Of a DNA stretch of 64,000 nucleotides, positions 42,728 to 49,393 are shown piece after piece. The translations under genes and the position numbers were made by a program. Source of the stretch: Gammaproteobacteria bacterium. GTDB lineage: Bacteria; Pseudomonadota; Gammaproteobacteria; Pseudomonadales; Azotimanducaceae. Location of the stretch: NCBI GenBank assembly GCA_030428905.1, contig JAUIED010000001.1, positions 186,001 through 250,000 of the forward strand. Direction: 5' to 3'. Position 1 is the stretch's first letter. The number at the start of each line of letters is the position of its first letter. The notes beneath the pieces are model-generated. The model was given only the letters and a program-made list of their open reading frames with translations. It ran no database searches and had not been told where the DNA came from.

Positions 42728-43429
42728 ATGAACGTGAAGACGGCGATTGTGTGGCGGCGGGTAACCGCAGGCTTCGGCGTTTGCCTGTGGGGTGGGTTGG
42801 CCGTTGCGCAGGACGTTGCACACGAGGCGGGCCACCTGGCGGCGCTGATAGCAGCAAACCCCTATCAGGAGGAAGTCTCCTGCGCCTATGTGACCACGCG
42901 CAGCAACGAGGACGGCGAGCAGGTGGAAGCCTTTGATAGCGTCTGGCGTCTTGTCAGCATCGATGGTCGGGCGCCCACGGAAGGCGAGCTTGACGACTAC
43001 GCCGGTGGCGCAGCCGGGCGGGAGGATCGTAAGCACCCGGCATCTTTGAATCTGGCGGAAGTGATCACACCCGGCACACTGGCCCTGGAGGAAGCGGGCG
43101 AAGACGGGCGCGAATACAGCTTCACGATGCGTGCGGAGGATGAAGAGGAGGAGGACTTTCTGGCCGCGATGGATGCGCGCTTGTGGACCGCTGCAGATGG
43201 TCGCGTGCGGCGTGTGCGTATGACCAACCGGGAACCGGTGTCGCCCCAGACCGGCGTTCGCATCAACCAGTTCGAGCAGGATATGCGGTTCGGATGGGAT
43301 ACAGGGTTGAGCCTGCCGCTCTTGCAATCGGTGCACGTCAAACTCGAAGGCCGTGCCTTTCTGGTAAAGAAACTCGATCAGGATCAAACCATCCGTTTCA
43401 GCGACATCCGCTGCCGAAGTACCCTATGA
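42728..43429 (+). CDS. Secreted protein of unknown function
   Basis: 233 residues with a signal peptide ([19 protein letters not shown]). The mature part is acidic ([18 protein letters not shown]) with a beta-rich C-terminal half ([41 protein letters not shown]), resembling outer-membrane-lipid- or lipoprotein-type beta sandwiches. I recognise no named family. It precedes the LemA operon by 30 bp and may be co-transcribed with it. Confidence 0.75.
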
Positions 43430-43459
43430 TCGGGCGTTGTGGACCATAGAGGTATCGTC

Positions 43460-44035
43460 ATGCGAGTCATCGTTCTGAGCTTTGCCCTGCTGCTCGCCGG
43501 CTGCGGCATCAACGCCATTCCTGAGCTCGATGAGCAGGTGAAAGCGGGTTGGGCGCAGGTGGAGAATCAGTACCAGCGGCGCGCAGATCTCATCCCCAAT
43601 CTGGTGGAGACGGTCAAAGGCTTTGCCGAGCAGGAACGGGAAGTGCTCACGCAGGTGACCGAAGCGCGAGCCAAGGTCAACCAGATGCAGGTGGATGCGG
43701 ATCTGGTCAACGATCCCAAGCGCCTGCAGGCCTTCGAGGCGGCGCAGTCGCAACTCTCCGGCGCGCTGAGCCGCTTGATGGTGGTGGTGGAGCGCTATCC
43801 GGATCTGAAGTCCAACGAGAATTTCCTCACCCTGCAGGCGCAGCTCGAAGGTACGGAGAATCGCATCAGCGTCGCCCGGCGTGACTTCATCGCTGCCGTG
43901 CAGGCTTACAACAGCGAGATTCGTACCTTTCCGGGGCGTATCTGGCACAGCATTCTGTATAGCGACCTGGAACTGCGTGAGACGTTCGAGGCGACGGCCG
44001 ACAACGCGGAGCAGGCGCCTTCCGTTCAGTTTTGA
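43460..44035 (+). CDS. lemA: LemA family lipoprotein
   Basis: 191 residues: lipobox LLAGC, then the LemA helical bundle (VENQYQRRADLIPNLVETVKGFAEQE and YNSEIRTFPGRIW). LemA proteins are membrane-linked, of unclear role, and typically encoded with TPM-domain proteins as here. ATG 43460 follows AGAGG at 43448; a longer start at 43439 would spoil the lipoprotein signal. It overlaps the next gene by 4 bp. Confidence 0.92.
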   Translation: MRVIVLSFALLLAGCGINAIPELDEQVKAGWAQVENQYQRRADLIPNLVETVKGFAEQEREVLTQVTEARAKVNQMQVDADLVNDPKRLQAFEAAQSQLSGALSRLMVVVERYPDLKSNENFLTLQAQLEGTENRISVARRDFIAAVQAYNSEIRTFPGRIWHSILYSDLELRETFEATADNAEQAPSVQF

Positions 44036-44742
44036 GGCGCATATCGTTCCTCATCTTCGTCGCGCTGTGCGCGGCTACCGCGCAGGCTGAGCTGCCGCTC
44101 ACCGGCAGGGTGATGGACCTTGCCGGCGTCCTGTCGCCGGCAACCCAAGCCCGGCTCACTGCTGAACTGGAAGCCCATGAACAGACCACCGGCAACCAGC
44201 TCGTCGTGCTCACGCTCGAAGATCTCGGCGGCTATGCGGTGGAAGAGAGAGCGTTGAACCTGGCGCGCGCCTGGCAGCTCGGCCAGGCGGAGAACGACAA
44301 CGGCGTGTTGTTTCTGATCGCGCTGGCGGAACGCAAGATCCGCATCGAAGTGGGCTACGGGCTGGAGGGTGCGTTGCCGGATGCTACCGCTGCCAACATC
44401 ATCCGCAGCCACGTGCAGCCCCGCTTCCGCGCCGGTGATTTTGATGGTGGTGTGTCTGCAGGGGTGGCGATGATTCTCGCTGCAATCCGCGGTGAATATG
44501 TCGCAGAGCCCGCCGGTGCTGAGGATGATGACGCCAACTGGTTGTTCTGGTTGATCGTTCTGATCATCGTGCTGCAGATCGTCAGGCCCATGTTTTTCCC
44601 GAACGTGGGCGGACGGCGCAGCCGTGGCGGACGTTACTACGGCGGCAGTTGGGGAGGCGGGGGCGGCGGCTTCGGTGGTGGAGGCGGCTTCGGCGGCGGT
44701 GGCGGTGGCTTCGGCGGTGGTGGAGCGTCCGGGGGATGGTGA
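44032..44742 (+). CDS. TPM-domain protein with Gly-rich C-terminus (YgcG-like)
   Basis: 236 residues: signal peptide, TPM domain (LTGRVMDLAGVLSPATQARL, VLTLEDLGGYAVEERALNLA, IRIEVGYGLEGALPD), one membrane helix (WLFWLIVLIIVLQIV) and a C-terminal tail of Gly/Phe/Ser repeats. Members of this family are thought to assist membrane-protein assembly or photosystem repair in plants; the bacterial role is unclear. TTG 44032 overlaps the lemA stop, so translation is probably coupled. Confidence 0.9.
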   Translation: MRRISFLIFVALCAATAQAELPLTGRVMDLAGVLSPATQARLTAELEAHEQTTGNQLVVLTLEDLGGYAVEERALNLARAWQLGQAENDNGVLFLIALAERKIRIEVGYGLEGALPDATAANIIRSHVQPRFRAGDFDGGVSAGVAMILAAIRGEYVAEPAGAEDDDANWLFWLIVLIIVLQIVRPMFFPNVGGRRSRGGRYYGGSWGGGGGGFGGGGGFGGGGGGFGGGGASGGW

Positions 44743-45353
44743 TGCTCGATCAAACCATGACGGCGCGCGTTTCTGATGCCATTCGTGAGGCGGAATCACA
44801 CACCCGCGTTGAGTTTGTCGCGGTGTTGGCCCGGCAGTCTGACGGCTACTACTTCATTCCTACGTTGTGGGCTGCGCTGCTGGCGCTGATGCTGCCGGCG
44901 GTGCTGCTCATCACGCCGATGTGGCTTGGCGTTCGTGATTTTGTCATTCTTCAGCTTCTCACCTTCAGCGTACTCACGGCACTCTTCCGTCTGCCGTTTC
45001 TGATGTATCGGCTGGTGCCGCGCAGCGTGTTGCAGCGGCGTGCGTCCAATATGGCGCACCGACAGTTTCTTGAGCAGGGTGTGCATCGCACGGCTGATGG
45101 CTTTGGCGTGCTGTTCTTCGTGTCAGAAGCCGAGCACTACGTGGAGATCATCGCCGACGCTGGCATCGATGCGCTGGTAGACCAGCAGCGTTGGCAGAGC
45201 ATTGTCGACGGTTTTACTTCACGCGTGCGAGCGGGAGAAGTCGAGCAGGGTTTCCTCACCGCGGTTGCGGAAGTCGCCGTCATCGGTCGGGAGTTGGCGC
45301 CTGTGGAACGGGCGACAGACGAGCTACCCAACCATCTCGTGGTGATCGAGTAG
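44742..45353 (+). CDS. TPM-domain membrane protein
   Basis: 203 residues: an N-terminal TPM half (VSDAIREAESHTRVEFVAVLARQS), a central membrane pair, then a second half (FGVLFFVSEAEHYVEIIADAGIDALV) like the family's C-terminal domain. ATG 44742 shares a base with the upstream stop; ATG 44736 and GTG 44739 are alternatives. Its last 12 residues (ADELPNHLVVIE, from ATD in this copy) are duplicated by a 34-bp repeat after the toxin-antitoxin pair. Confidence 0.85.
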   Translation: MLDQTMTARVSDAIREAESHTRVEFVAVLARQSDGYYFIPTLWAALLALMLPAVLLITPMWLGVRDFVILQLLTFSVLTALFRLPFLMYRLVPRSVLQRRASNMAHRQFLEQGVHRTADGFGVLFFVSEAEHYVEIIADAGIDALVDQQRWQSIVDGFTSRVRAGEVEQGFLTAVAEVAVIGRELAPVERATDELPNHLVVIE

Positions 45354-45354
45354 C
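45321..45354. repeat. 34-bp direct repeat, left copy (3' end of the TPM gene)
   Basis: Bases 45321-45354 are identical to 46241-46274, 920 bp away. The repeat spans the last ten codons plus the stop of the TPM gene. It also has nested inverted arms: GCTAC/GTAGC outer, ACCA/TGGT inner. Between the copies lies only the toxin-antitoxin pair. Confidence 0.95.
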
Positions 45355-45470
45355 ACTGCCGCGCGACCGAACATTCTGGCTGATCAGGCGGGTCATCTTC
45401 CACGAAAAGTGAGAGGGGGCACGACGACGGGTGTCGGCCCGGATTTGGCATCTGTCCTGGCACGGGCAGA

Positions 45471-45493
45471 TGTTTGATGTTTGATGTTTGATG
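45471..45493 (+). repeat. Tandem 7-bp repeat upstream of the antitoxin
   Basis: TGTTTGA occurs three times in a row followed by TG, 16 bp before ATG 45509. It may be a slippage-prone spacer in the promoter or leader of the toxin-antitoxin operon. Confidence 0.8.
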
Positions 45494-45508
45494 CGGTATG
45501 TTCCGCCG

Positions 45509-45757
45509 ATGCGTACAACGTTAGATATCGATGCAGACGTTCTCTCGGCTGCCAAAGAGATTGCCAGGCGTAGTCGCAAAACCGCCGGCCAGGTGGTTTC
45601 GGAGCTGCTGCGTCAGGCGCTTGCTGCTGCTAGTTCCCCAGAGGTTGAAGGCGTCAGCGAGACTCGAGCCAGCTACGGCATCGAGCCGTTTCCTCCCCGG
45701 GGTGGCGTTGTCACAAACGAGATAATCGACGCGATTGCCGATGAGTCCGGAGAATGA
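45509..45757 (+). CDS. VapB-like antitoxin, ribbon-helix-helix
   Basis: 82 residues with a ribbon-helix-helix start (RTTLDIDADVLSAAKEIARRS) and a C-terminal tail expected to wrap the toxin. It overlaps the PIN-domain gene by 4 bp (ATGA). Such antitoxins repress their own operon. ATG 45509 begins the conserved DNA-binding strand; the start at 45488 lies in the tandem repeat. Confidence 0.85.
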   Translation: MRTTLDIDADVLSAAKEIARRSRKTAGQVVSELLRQALAAASSPEVEGVSETRASYGIEPFPPRGGVVTNEIIDAIADESGE

Positions 45758-46182
45758 GAGCCCTATTCGATGTCAACGTGCTCATCGCCTTGCTCGACCA
45801 GCAGCACGTCAATCATCGGTTGGCGTTTCAGTGGCTTGAACTCAATGGGCACCTTGGTTGGGCAACTTGCCCCCTCACGCAGAACGGCTGCATGCGTATC
45901 ATGTCGCAGCAACGCTACCCGAACCCCGTAGCGATCGGAGAAATTCGCAGGAAGCTCCATCGGGCTGCACAGTCCGACGCGCATGCGTTTCTACCGGATG
46001 ATGTAAGCCTGCTCGACGACGAGCTCGTTGATTCAACAGCCGTGTACGGACACCGGCAGCTCACGGATATCTACCTTCTGGCACTTTCCGTGGTACATGG
46101 TTGTCGTCTGGTCACGTTCGATCAGTCGCTTTCAACAGCGGCGGTTCGAGGCGCGGATGGTCTGCACCTCGTACAGCTGTAG
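45754..46182 (+). CDS. VapC-like PIN-domain toxin ribonuclease
   Basis: 142 residues of the PIN fold with acidic residues in place: Asp in LFDVNVLIALLD, Asp in LTDIYLLALS and Asp in VTFDQSL. VapC toxins cleave tRNA or rRNA when freed of antitoxin. It is overlapped by the antitoxin gene and followed by the second 34-bp repeat. The whole unit looks inserted into the end of the TPM operon. Confidence 0.88.
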   Translation: MRALFDVNVLIALLDQQHVNHRLAFQWLELNGHLGWATCPLTQNGCMRIMSQQRYPNPVAIGEIRRKLHRAAQSDAHAFLPDDVSLLDDELVDSTAVYGHRQLTDIYLLALSVVHGCRLVTFDQSLSTAAVRGADGLHLVQL

Positions 46183-46240
46183 CGGTTCTGAGCCGGCGGA
46201 ATACGCAACGATGAGCTTGATACTTTGGCTTTCGGCGGAT

Positions 46241-46274
46241 GAGCTACCCAACCATCTCGTGGTGATCGAGTAGC
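46241..46274. repeat. 34-bp direct repeat, right copy
   Basis: Identical to 45321-45354. It restores the C-terminal codons ELPNHLVVIE and the stop TAG of the TPM gene, here with no gene in front of it. This is the pattern left when an element inserts in a gene end and duplicates it. Confidence 0.95.
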
Positions 46275-46298
46275 CCACCCGTCTGAGGGACGCGTGCG

Positions 46299-47345
46299 CT
46301 ACATCGCGTCTACGAGGTTGCGCAGCTTCTCACAGTGCGCCACGCGTTCCTCCGTCGTTTGCCCGAGAAAGCCAACGTTTAAAGCGGATACGCCGGAGTC
46401 GCGCAGCGCATGCAGACGCTCGCGCACGAAGCCTTCGTCGCCGATGAGCGAATTCTTCGCCAGATATTCATCCGGAATGGCGGCTTCGGCGGCCTTCTTG
46501 TCTCCGGACAGATACAGGTCCTGGATGGTCTTCGCTTCTTTCCCGTAGCCGGACTTGGTGAAGATGTCGTTGTAGAAATTCTTCGACCGCGCGCCCATAC
46601 CGCCCACGTACAGCGCTGTTTGCGGGCGGCTCAGGTTGCGCAGATCCTCGAGGCCCTTGCCGATGGCGACGGCGCCGCCAGCGAAGATCTCCAGCGGCGC
46701 CCGGTTGGGATCACGCTTTTCGAATCCGGCGGCCAGCGCTTCCCCCCATACGGCGTTCGCCGCCTCGGCGGTGTAGAACGCCGGCAGCCAGGCATCTGCC
46801 AGCTCCGCGGTCATTTCCACGCTGCGCTCGCCCAGGGAGGCGATGGCGATGGGAATATCCTCGCGCACGGGATGGTTGATGAGCTTCAGCGGCTTGCCGA
46901 GGCCCGTGCCCTGGTTCTGCGGCAGCGGAATCTGATAGTGGCGCCCCAGGTGTTGAACCCGGTCTCTGCGCCACACGGTGCGGCAGATGTCGATGATCTC
47001 GCGGATGCGTGCGACGGGTGCGGTGTAAGGGATGCCGTGAAAGCCTTCTATAACCTGCGGACCTGAAGCCCCGAGCCCCAGCATGCAGCGCCCGTCGGAC
47101 AGCGAATCGATGCCGGCAGCGGTCATGGCGAGCAGGCTTGGGGTTCGTGTGTAGATCGGCAGGATGCCGGAGGCGATGGTCACCCGCTCGGTCTTGGCCG
47201 CCAGGTAGCCCATGGCGCTGGGTGCGTCGAATGAGTAGGCCTCTGGCACCCACACCACATCGAGGCCGGCCTTTTCCAGCAATTGCACTTCTTTCACCGC
47301 GTCTTTGAAGCCGGCCGCGTAGCTCAGCAGCATGGATATGCGCAT
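46299..47345 (-). CDS. LLM-class flavin-dependent oxidoreductase (F420-type)
   Basis: 348 residues of the luciferase-like monooxygenase barrel: AGLDVVWVPEAYSFDAPSAMGY, ERVTIASGILPIYTRTP, GIDSLSDGRCMLGLGASGPQ, all typical of LLM class F420-dependent enzymes. The cofactor (F420 or FMN) cannot be settled here; no F420 genes are in the window. Substrate unknown. A lone gene, followed at its 3' side by the second 34-bp repeat. Confidence 0.88.
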   Translation of the reverse strand: MRISMLLSYAAGFKDAVKEVQLLEKAGLDVVWVPEAYSFDAPSAMGYLAAKTERVTIASGILPIYTRTPSLLAMTAAGIDSLSDGRCMLGLGASGPQVIEGFHGIPYTAPVARIREIIDICRTVWRRDRVQHLGRHYQIPLPQNQGTGLGKPLKLINHPVREDIPIAIASLGERSVEMTAELADAWLPAFYTAEAANAVWGEALAAGFEKRDPNRAPLEIFAGGAVAIGKGLEDLRNLSRPQTALYVGGMGARSKNFYNDIFTKSGYGKEAKTIQDLYLSGDKKAAEAAIPDEYLAKNSLIGDEGFVRERLHALRDSGVSALNVGFLGQTTEERVAHCEKLRNLVDAM

Positions 47346-47416
47346 GGATCGTTCCCCCGGATTTGTTTAGCGGCAGAAGATGAGGAAAACTCTTGGAAAA
47401 ATAAAGAGGAAAAGCC

Positions 47417-48778
47417 ATGCGCGCGATGTTGCTCGCTATGGGCATGCTGCTCTCCTGGGCGGCGCAGGCGGACGATTACGGCCGGCAAGCCGTGGAGCGT
47501 TTGTCCGATTACCTGAAGATCGACACGATCAACCCGCCGGGGAACGAGTCTCGCGGCGTCGACTTTCTTTCCCGGCTGCTCGCCGAGGCAGGCATTGCCT
47601 ACCAGACCGGCGAGTCCGCGCCAGGCCGCGGTAACCTCTGGGCGAAGCTGCCCGGTGGCGATAAACCAGGCCTGGTATTGCTGCACCACATTGATGTGGT
47701 GCCGGCGAACGAGAAATTCTGGAGCTTCGACCCGCTCTCCGGAGAGGTGAAAGACGGCTTCGTTTATGGCCGTGGCGCCATCGACACCAAAGGCCTCGGC
47801 ATGACCCACCTGCAGGCGTTCATCGCGCTCAAGGCATCGGGGGCAAAGCTGAACCGTGACGTGTGGTTCATTGCCACCGCTGACGAAGAGGCAGGCGGCA
47901 TGTTCGGTGCCGGCTGGTTGATCGAGGCGCACCGGGACATCTTTGATGGCGTGGGCTATGTGCTGAATGAAGGTGGTGCCGGGCGGATGTTCGGTGAGCA
48001 GGCGGCGAATCTCGTGGAAGTGACCCAGAAGGTGCCCTTGTGGCTGCGCATGACGGCCTACGGCCGGCCTGGACATGGCTCGTCCCCGCAGGTGGAAACC
48101 GCGGTAACGCGCCTTGTGCGGGCGGCGCACCGGATCGCGCAAACGCAGTTCTCACCGCGGGTGGTGCCTGCGGTGAAGGCGATGTTCGAAGGTACCGCAC
48201 CGTTTCGCAGCGCTGAGGAGCGCGCCCGCATGGCGGATGTGGAGAACGCTGTAAAGGACCGGGAGTTCATGCTGGCCCTGCAGATGCAGGAGCCTGCGAC
48301 ACACGCGCTACTGCGTAATACGTGTTCGATCACGCGCCTCGAAGGCAGTAGCAAGATCAACGTGGTGCCGGCGGAGGTATTTGCTGAGCTCGACTGCCGG
48401 CTGCTGCCCGACCAGGACCCCAACGCCTTTCTCGAGGAACTGCGGCTCATCATCAATGATGACAACGTCGAGATCAGCCGCCTGATGGGCTTCACTCCGG
48501 CGGTCAGCCGCACCGATACGGAGGTGTTCCGGGCGCTGGCGGCGGTGACGGAGGAAGCCTATGGGGCGCAGACCGTGCCGACTGTTTCCGCCGGATTTAC
48601 CGACAGCCATTTCTTCCGCGACATGGGCATCACCAGTTACGGCTTTTCGCCTTTCGTTTTCTCGCCGGAGGAGATGCGCGGTATCCACGGCAACGATGAG
48701 CGCGTGTCGGTGCGCAACGTCGAACAAGGTACAGCGGTAATGATCGATCTGCTGCGGCGCATTGCGGTAGATGATTGA
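47417..48778 (+). CDS. M20-family metallopeptidase (ArgE/DapE/CPG2 type), exported
   Basis: 453 residues with signal peptide (LLAMGMLLSWAAQA). The two-zinc motif is LLHHIDVVPAN, GRGAIDTKG, TADEEAGG and the C-terminal SHFFRDMG. The internal dimerisation lid domain is present. It would remove an acyl or terminal amino acid from a peptide or amide. AGAGGAAAA precedes ATG 47417. Divergent from the LLM gene; three bp from the convergent TetR gene. Confidence 0.9.
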   Translation: MRAMLLAMGMLLSWAAQADDYGRQAVERLSDYLKIDTINPPGNESRGVDFLSRLLAEAGIAYQTGESAPGRGNLWAKLPGGDKPGLVLLHHIDVVPANEKFWSFDPLSGEVKDGFVYGRGAIDTKGLGMTHLQAFIALKASGAKLNRDVWFIATADEEAGGMFGAGWLIEAHRDIFDGVGYVLNEGGAGRMFGEQAANLVEVTQKVPLWLRMTAYGRPGHGSSPQVETAVTRLVRAAHRIAQTQFSPRVVPAVKAMFEGTAPFRSAEERARMADVENAVKDREFMLALQMQEPATHALLRNTCSITRLEGSSKINVVPAEVFAELDCRLLPDQDPNAFLEELRLIINDDNVEISRLMGFTPAVSRTDTEVFRALAAVTEEAYGAQTVPTVSAGFTDSHFFRDMGITSYGFSPFVFSPEEMRGIHGNDERVSVRNVEQGTAVMIDLLRRIAVDD

Positions 48779-48781
48779 ACG

Positions 48782-49393
48782 CTACGATGCGCGTTCTGGG
48801 GGCGCACTCAGCTCGGCCAGGCTGATGAGCTGCTTGAGCTGATCGCGAAAGCGCTGAAAGTCCGGGTCGTGGGAAGGCGCGCCTGCGGTCTGCATGGTTA
48901 CGGATGCGCCTAACAGTGCAGCAAGCACGATGCGAGGCAACTCGCTGTTTACCATGCTGGAATCGGTGCGCAGGCTACCGGCTGCTTGGGTCCAGGCATC
49001 GGTCACCGAGCGCATCTTGCGCATGAGGCGCGTCTTGTCCGCCATATCGCCGCGCACACCGCTGCGAATCTGCTGGTAGGCGAGGTAGGCGCGGTTGTTG
49101 ATCTGCTCCCAGACGAAGTCCACCATCGTGTTCAGCGAGGGGCTGGCGCCGGGCGCCGAATCCAGTTGCGTTCTGACCTCGTGGCGGAGCGCCGCGCCGA
49201 TGTGCTCGAGCACGTCTTCCAGGAGTTCCGTGCGGCTGGCGTAGTGGTGATGGATCGCACCGCGGCTGAGCCCAGCCCGCTTCGCCACATCAACGAAGGT
49301 TGTGCCCGCAAGGCCGCGTTGGTTTAACAGATCGATGGCCGCGTCGATAAGGCGCTGGCGGGTGTCGCTGCTCTGAGTCTGCAATTTGCTCAC
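48782..49393 (-). CDS. TetR/AcrR-family regulator
   Basis: 203 residues with N-terminal helix-turn-helix TTFVDVAKRAGLSRGAIHHHYASRTELLEDVL, and a ligand-binding C-terminal domain typical of the family. The start GTG 49393 is used. Likely target: the divergent gap to csrA, which holds a 10-bp inverted repeat at 49435-49468. The ligand is unknown. Confidence 0.9.
   Translation of the reverse strand: MSKLQTQSSDTRQRLIDAAIDLLNQRGLAGTTFVDVAKRAGLSRGAIHHHYASRTELLEDVLEHIGAALRHEVRTQLDSAPGASPSLNTMVDFVWEQINNRAYLAYQQIRSGVRGDMADKTRLMRKMRSVTDAWTQAAGSLRTDSSMVNSELPRIVLAALLGASVTMQTAGAPSHDPDFQRFRDQLKQLISLAELSAPPERAS

Follow-up and report, generated by a model that had tools for sequence, protein, structure and literature searches.

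A vapBC toxin–antitoxin-like pair in the window (the whole stretch of DNA analysed here, 64 kb in length) lies between two identical copies of the 3′ end of a TPM-domain gene, and a congeneric sister genome carries the same junction with one copy of this sequence and no pair. The repeat, the empty site, the intact reading frames and the lack of common ends among related inserts are direct observations, and sequence comparison indicates that the locus is probably a real vapBC insertion, later than the split from the sister. We consider it rather likely that a naked vapBC unit entered through illegitimate recombination or repair indifferent to its ends, with the target duplicated at this locus. 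This view is favoured because the unit is minimal, has neither fixed ends nor an enzyme, and shows one duplication, while elsewhere in the family a few bases were replaced.

The duplicated TPM gene end and the enclosed unit

The TPM-domain gene (44742–45353, + strand, 203 aa) scores 39.7 bits against Pfam TPM_phosphatase (cut-off 22.1) and has 94% amino acid identity with its orthologue in the sister. The duplicated target is the 3′ terminus of this gene, GAGCTACCCAACCATCTCGTGGTGATCGAGTAG, which with one additional C makes up a 34-nt repeat unit consisting of ten codons (GAG to GAG), the TAG stop and the C. Copy 1, the end of the gene itself, occupies 45321–45354 (+), and copy 2 is found at 46241–46274 (+), where the locus ends. 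The two copies are identical at 34/34 positions and start 920 bp apart, in agreement with the sequence-only reading that the last ten codons and stop of the gene are copied exactly at this distance downstream. A chance origin of the repeat is excluded by two counts: the 5.2-Mb genome contains it two times when up to three mismatches are allowed (reversed control pattern, 0), and within the window no other exact direct repeat reaches 17 nt at a spacing of 100–6,000 bp. No such repeats were detected in 20-kb and 14-kb stretches of the same contig, which partly overlap the window. Local duplication with TPM remnants was considered and rejected, as the DNA to the left of copy 2 is unlike TPM except for a few bases adjoining the repeat.

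Nested inverted arms had been described within the repeat and are indeed present, with outer arms GCTAC...GTAGC and inner arms ACCA/TGGT, but the dyad is imperfect and lies inside coding sequence. Among 3,000 shuffled versions of the sequence, 22 had as many paired positions. The empty site of the sister has ATCACC-TCGT-GGTGAT at this position, and the dyad is therefore a feature of the host gene end and not of the insert.

Between the copies lies a segment of 886 bp (45355–46240, +; 920 bp with one copy included) whose GC content of 57.7%, as compared to 62.6% for the window, falls in the 2nd percentile of 886-bp stretches. The only genes read in this segment are vapB and vapC, as had been proposed. 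About 115 bp of leading DNA precede a set of TTTGATG repeats (45470–45495, +) upstream of vapB, which form a putative operator or promoter. Judged by eye, of the 10 relatives for which a gene start was found, 7 have TGATG motifs ahead of vapB; in L030 and L031 there are GCATCA motifs alone, and in L039 neither motif. Several relatives carry TGATG together with GCATCA at this place, a possible VapB operator. The vapBC unit may thus carry its own operator.

The vapB antitoxin gene (45509–45757, +) encodes 82 aa, scores below the cut-off for Pfam DUF6364, and its product is presumably of the ribbon-helix-helix class. Relatives of VapB (tblastn, 41–60% amino acid identity) were present at all 12 related vapC loci examined, partially in L027 and L029. 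The vapC gene (45754–46182, +) overlaps vapB by 4 nt and encodes a PIN-domain toxin of 142 aa (PF01850, 30.9 bits, cut-off 23.6; NCBIfam TIGR00028, 94.6 bits, cut-off 73.6), in which D6, D105, D123 and the TQNG of positions 42–45 are invariant across 8/8 aligned sequences, our own included. A PIN toxin with conserved acidic residues and a small antitoxin gene ahead of it is the layout of type II VapBC systems, and on these grounds the pair is predicted to have toxin–antitoxin activity. A sequence search for a close PDB relative of VapC found none, and a PADLOC run gave no useful match.

The empty site and the direction of change

The sequence-only reading had proposed a search for relatives with one repeat copy and no insert. 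We compared this region with 58 genomes (our own and 57 relatives), and such an empty site is present in a member of the same genus (G003), where the match stops exactly at the repeat end. The contig concerned (L016, 5,007 bp) is fully covered by two blastn blocks with 88% identity, which correspond to positions 42986–45354 and 46233–48910 of the window and have 42 bp in common at the repeat; the overlap of the first copy with the empty site therefore extends over 45313–45354, with mismatches. The contig has a single copy of the repeat and no vapBC, so that only the insert is missing, and to the right of the single copy are the same intergenic flank and convergent gene that follow copy 2 in the window. 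This gene, on the far side of the insertion (46299–47345, − strand), encodes an LLM-class F420-dependent oxidoreductase-like protein (TIGR03559, 461.5 bits, cut-off 335) with 99.4% amino acid identity to that of the sister. As a side observation, 63 of its 198 fourfold sites nevertheless differ between the two genomes, which points to very strong purifying selection. The TPM end of the sister differs from both window copies at 3/34 bases. The sister genome is a metagenome bin (89% complete, 6% contamination) and our own (G000) is a draft assembly in 357 contigs (3.8% contamination).

Across the TPM and oxidoreductase genes, 92 of 308 fourfold sites differ between our genome and the sister (K ~0.38). 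If copy 2 is treated as free from coding constraint, an insertion before the split would predict ~6.5 changes in its 34 bases, as compared to none observed (P ~0.0015). The unchanged state of the copies at 34/34 positions despite this divergence makes a recent gain more likely than a clean loss in the sister, and we infer a gain after the split. This polarity rests on sequence identity, and gene conversion between the copies could fake such recency. No outgroup junction of the TPM and LLM genes was found among the TPM-bearing loci searched (our own and that of the sister aside), most of which have at most 1.5 kb of flank; the sole LLM matches besides those in our genome and the sister are weak ones of 29% identity in L056 and L129.

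Two explanations of the empty site do without a recent insertion. The common ancestor may have had the pair, which the sister then lost cleanly through deletion between the 34-bp repeats. Such a deletion would leave exactly one copy, as is seen, but the identity of the copies in the face of K ~0.38 and the three bases that separate the sister from both of them argue against this scenario, which also leaves the origin of the repeat unexplained, and we regard it as improbable. Alternatively, unrelated vapBC DNA could have been joined into the TPM–LLM junction during assembly. The draft state and contamination of our genome and the low GC content of the insert would fit with such an artefact; however, the flanks on either side are the right ones and line up with the sister, and misjoined DNA would need to agree with the same 34 bp at its two ends. 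Moreover, 34 bp is less than the usual short-read length. An assembly error is very unlikely to have produced this locus.

Related inserts and the route of entry

Matches to VapC were obtained in 23 of 206 genomes (our own included), with the closest relatives found in the family of the host being ~54% identical. For three related vapBC inserts a sister genome has the corresponding empty site, and all three stand alone in other intergenic gaps. A 788-bp insert in G165 replaces 15 bp of G164, two bases beyond a TGA stop; one of 836 bp in G010 replaces 10 bp of G208; and one of at most 905 bp in G004 replaces at most 153 bp of G001, a less clean case since these figures include diverged gene ends. 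There are no direct repeats of more than 8 nt at the ends of these three inserts. Comparison of the terminal 80 bp of all four inserts in all pairings detected no common stretch of more than 9 nt, and none of the four has a terminal inverted match of more than 8 nt, the longest in the window insert being 5 nt. Clean empty sites were also searched for with G220 and G142 and were not found. Of the four family inserts with an empty site one has a target duplication, so that duplication is not characteristic of this vapBC family.

The idea that vapBC loci are generally marked by a flanking repeat was rejected using a test of repeats in up to 1.5 kb of flank, in which 25 of 30 VapC match rows (our own included) could be scored, the other five being too short. 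Strong repeats were detected only at our own locus (34 bp) and at two g58 loci represented by three rows (L033, L039 and L048, from G212 and G223). The repeats at these two loci are imperfect, 67 bp in length, and belong to a duplicated adjoining toxin–antitoxin-like pair (Pfam Gp49 and addiction-module antidote, domains taken from L039). The remaining 21 rows scored 16 or less (16 in L037) against a maximum of 15 in 200 shuffles, and no flanking repeats were found at the other 13 of the 14 PIN rows of our own genome (scores of 15 or less). As separate observations, L039 (577–2300, G223) and L033 (G212) have a same-family vapBC with an intact Gp49/addiction-antidote pair on one side and a partial, decayed copy of this pair on the other, and in two sets of orthologous vapBC inserts (L117 of G218 and L028 of G220; L141/L149 of G206 and L025 of G010) one species lacks internal DNA. 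This absence suggests decay after insertion.

Integrase-type islands at gene 3′ ends leave a direct repeat that includes the stop codon and keep the host gene whole. The sequence-only reading had viewed the present locus in these terms, as a minimal cassette moved in trans at an attachment site, and its remark that no integrase is present holds for the insert and, as regards tyrosine recombinases, for the window: only vapB and vapC lie between the copies, and none of the 10 tyrosine recombinase matches in the genome is within the window. Its suggestion of insertion at a gene end that restores TPM through target duplication is likewise borne out by the empty site, whereas the integrase-style attachment site is not. 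A small non-autonomous cassette, or what remains of a larger island, placed at the 3′ end of TPM by an integrase that acted in trans or has since disappeared, would account for a repeat that covers the gene end and stop and restores the gene, for the partial dyad within this repeat and for the presence of the 10 recombinase matches, the nearest of which on the same contig (C334:268303) lies ~36 kb beyond the repeat, outside the window. An attachment site of this kind would be poorly conserved, however, with 3/34 bases already changed in the sister and more divergence in the TPM tails of other rows. A survey of TPM ends covered 30 match rows (29 loci), obtained in 29 of the 200 family genomes, with up to 1.5 kb of downstream DNA (less at several loci, none at L076); no distant copy of the own TPM end was found in the 29 rows (28 loci) other than the window. 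The back-translated TPM end, searched as an exact degenerate 33-mer in collections that may omit the window's own or very near records, hit two stretches in genome_contigs with one copy each and none in viral contigs. The proposed search for other cargo between the same repeat was thus negative in genome_contigs, viral contigs and the TPM loci surveyed, and the three other family inserts with an empty site have no direct repeat of more than 8 nt. We therefore set aside an integrase cassette in trans as the leading reading; a trans-acting enzyme is possible, with no positive evidence in its favour, and the attachment-site explanation as a whole is a minority one, albeit better placed than ancestral loss. 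In the same survey, L061 (G021) was observed to have a 24-nt tandem repeat of the last TPM codons directly after the TPM stop.

Movement as a transposon or integron cassette merits mention since toxin–antitoxin pairs are known as cargo of integrons (PMC2654758). There is no transposase, vapB and vapC are the only genes, the inverted match at the ends of the window insert does not exceed 5 nt and the family inserts have no common ends. The repeat of 34 bp also far exceeds the usual target duplications of transposons, and we give this route almost no weight. A phage or viral carrier was rejected, as VapC has no matches in phages and no relative of it was found in 16 pattern stretches of viral contigs (a single-protein query that would detect close relatives only). 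A plasmid as direct donor was also rejected: 103 plasmid records, mostly from Sinorhizobium (51) and Rhizobium (35), hold VapC relatives, but the best place in each is <60% identical, with 46.6–50.0% identity among the 20 matches listed.

End-indifferent insertion could have proceeded as follows. A vapBC unit, comprising the two genes and their own upstream DNA and no mobility gene, would have entered the chromosome just beyond the TPM stop through illegitimate recombination or through repair, either of a long-overhang break or by template switching. A staggered break or template switch spanning 34–42 bp at the TPM end would be the most likely source of the duplication; the dyad of the empty site might, as a guess, favour breakage at this point. 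Insertion past the stop would have spared the host gene, with TPM retaining its full 3′ end, and the pair, if active as a toxin–antitoxin module, would resist its own loss, addiction thereby keeping the insert in place. Type II pairs in general have such a stabilizing effect. Set against this end-indifferent view are the position of a 34-bp repeat exactly at a gene end and stop, which integrase islands also leave, and the fact that the two genomes compared are a draft and a metagenome bin.

Comparison with known systems

The main value of this locus lies in providing base-level junctions for how toxin–antitoxin pairs enter chromosomes. Four inserts of this VapBC family with sister empty sites are minimal units that have no common ends and include one clear target duplication. 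This pattern speaks for end-indifferent insertion, and the question can be tested by collecting further junctions. It is conceivable, although we hold this only tentatively, that type II pairs spread as naked, end-indifferent units into intergenic gaps next to gene ends through host break repair, sometimes duplicating the target. If so, the ‘mobility system’ of these pairs would be addiction after insertion combined with host repair, and no recombinase.

Among known systems, integrase genomic islands at gene 3′ ends are similar in their direct repeat including the stop and in the host gene being kept whole; the vapBC insert differs in having no integrase, a poorly conserved target and no other cargo found. 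As a VapBC system, the pair is an ordinary member of TIGR00028 (Mtu_PIN_fam), with VapC above the family cut-off, the same pair layout and nothing notable differing.

The insertion of restriction-modification genes with long target duplication was reportedly described by Nobusato et al. in 2000 and Furuta et al. in 2010. In the passages available, insertion of such genes creates target duplications that are long and differ in length, on a scale of 100 bp (PMC3874152), a phenomenon also treated in PMC1643837 and PMC3031569. The present locus resembles these cases, as far as they are described there, in having an addiction-type pair without a mobility gene, flanking target repeats (34 bp exact, 42 bp with mismatches) and relatives that differ, one of them with a one-copy empty site. 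It differs in that the cargo is VapBC, so that it works like this class with a toxin–antitoxin cargo, in the shorter duplication (34–42 bp versus the order of 100 bp in PMC3874152) and in the comparison being between species, whereas the restriction-modification cases in those passages are between strains.

Toxin–antitoxin ‘genomic islets’ provide the other parallel. The passages on these islets describe ccdAB in the folA–apaH gap and mazEF in the relA–mazG gap, which are undisturbed elsewhere (PMC7167474, PMC7232551), and a 2020 review speaks of their integration route as unelucidated (PMC7167474). The likeness is that a single pair occupies an intergenic gap which other strains have undisturbed; the differences are that the vapBC insert has base-level junctions and a duplicated target, whereas the islet passages mention no flanking repeat. 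No report of a toxin–antitoxin pair inserted with a long target duplication was found in the open-licence literature searched. As compared with these sources, the locus joins target duplication in the style of restriction-modification genes with the insertion of a toxin–antitoxin islet.
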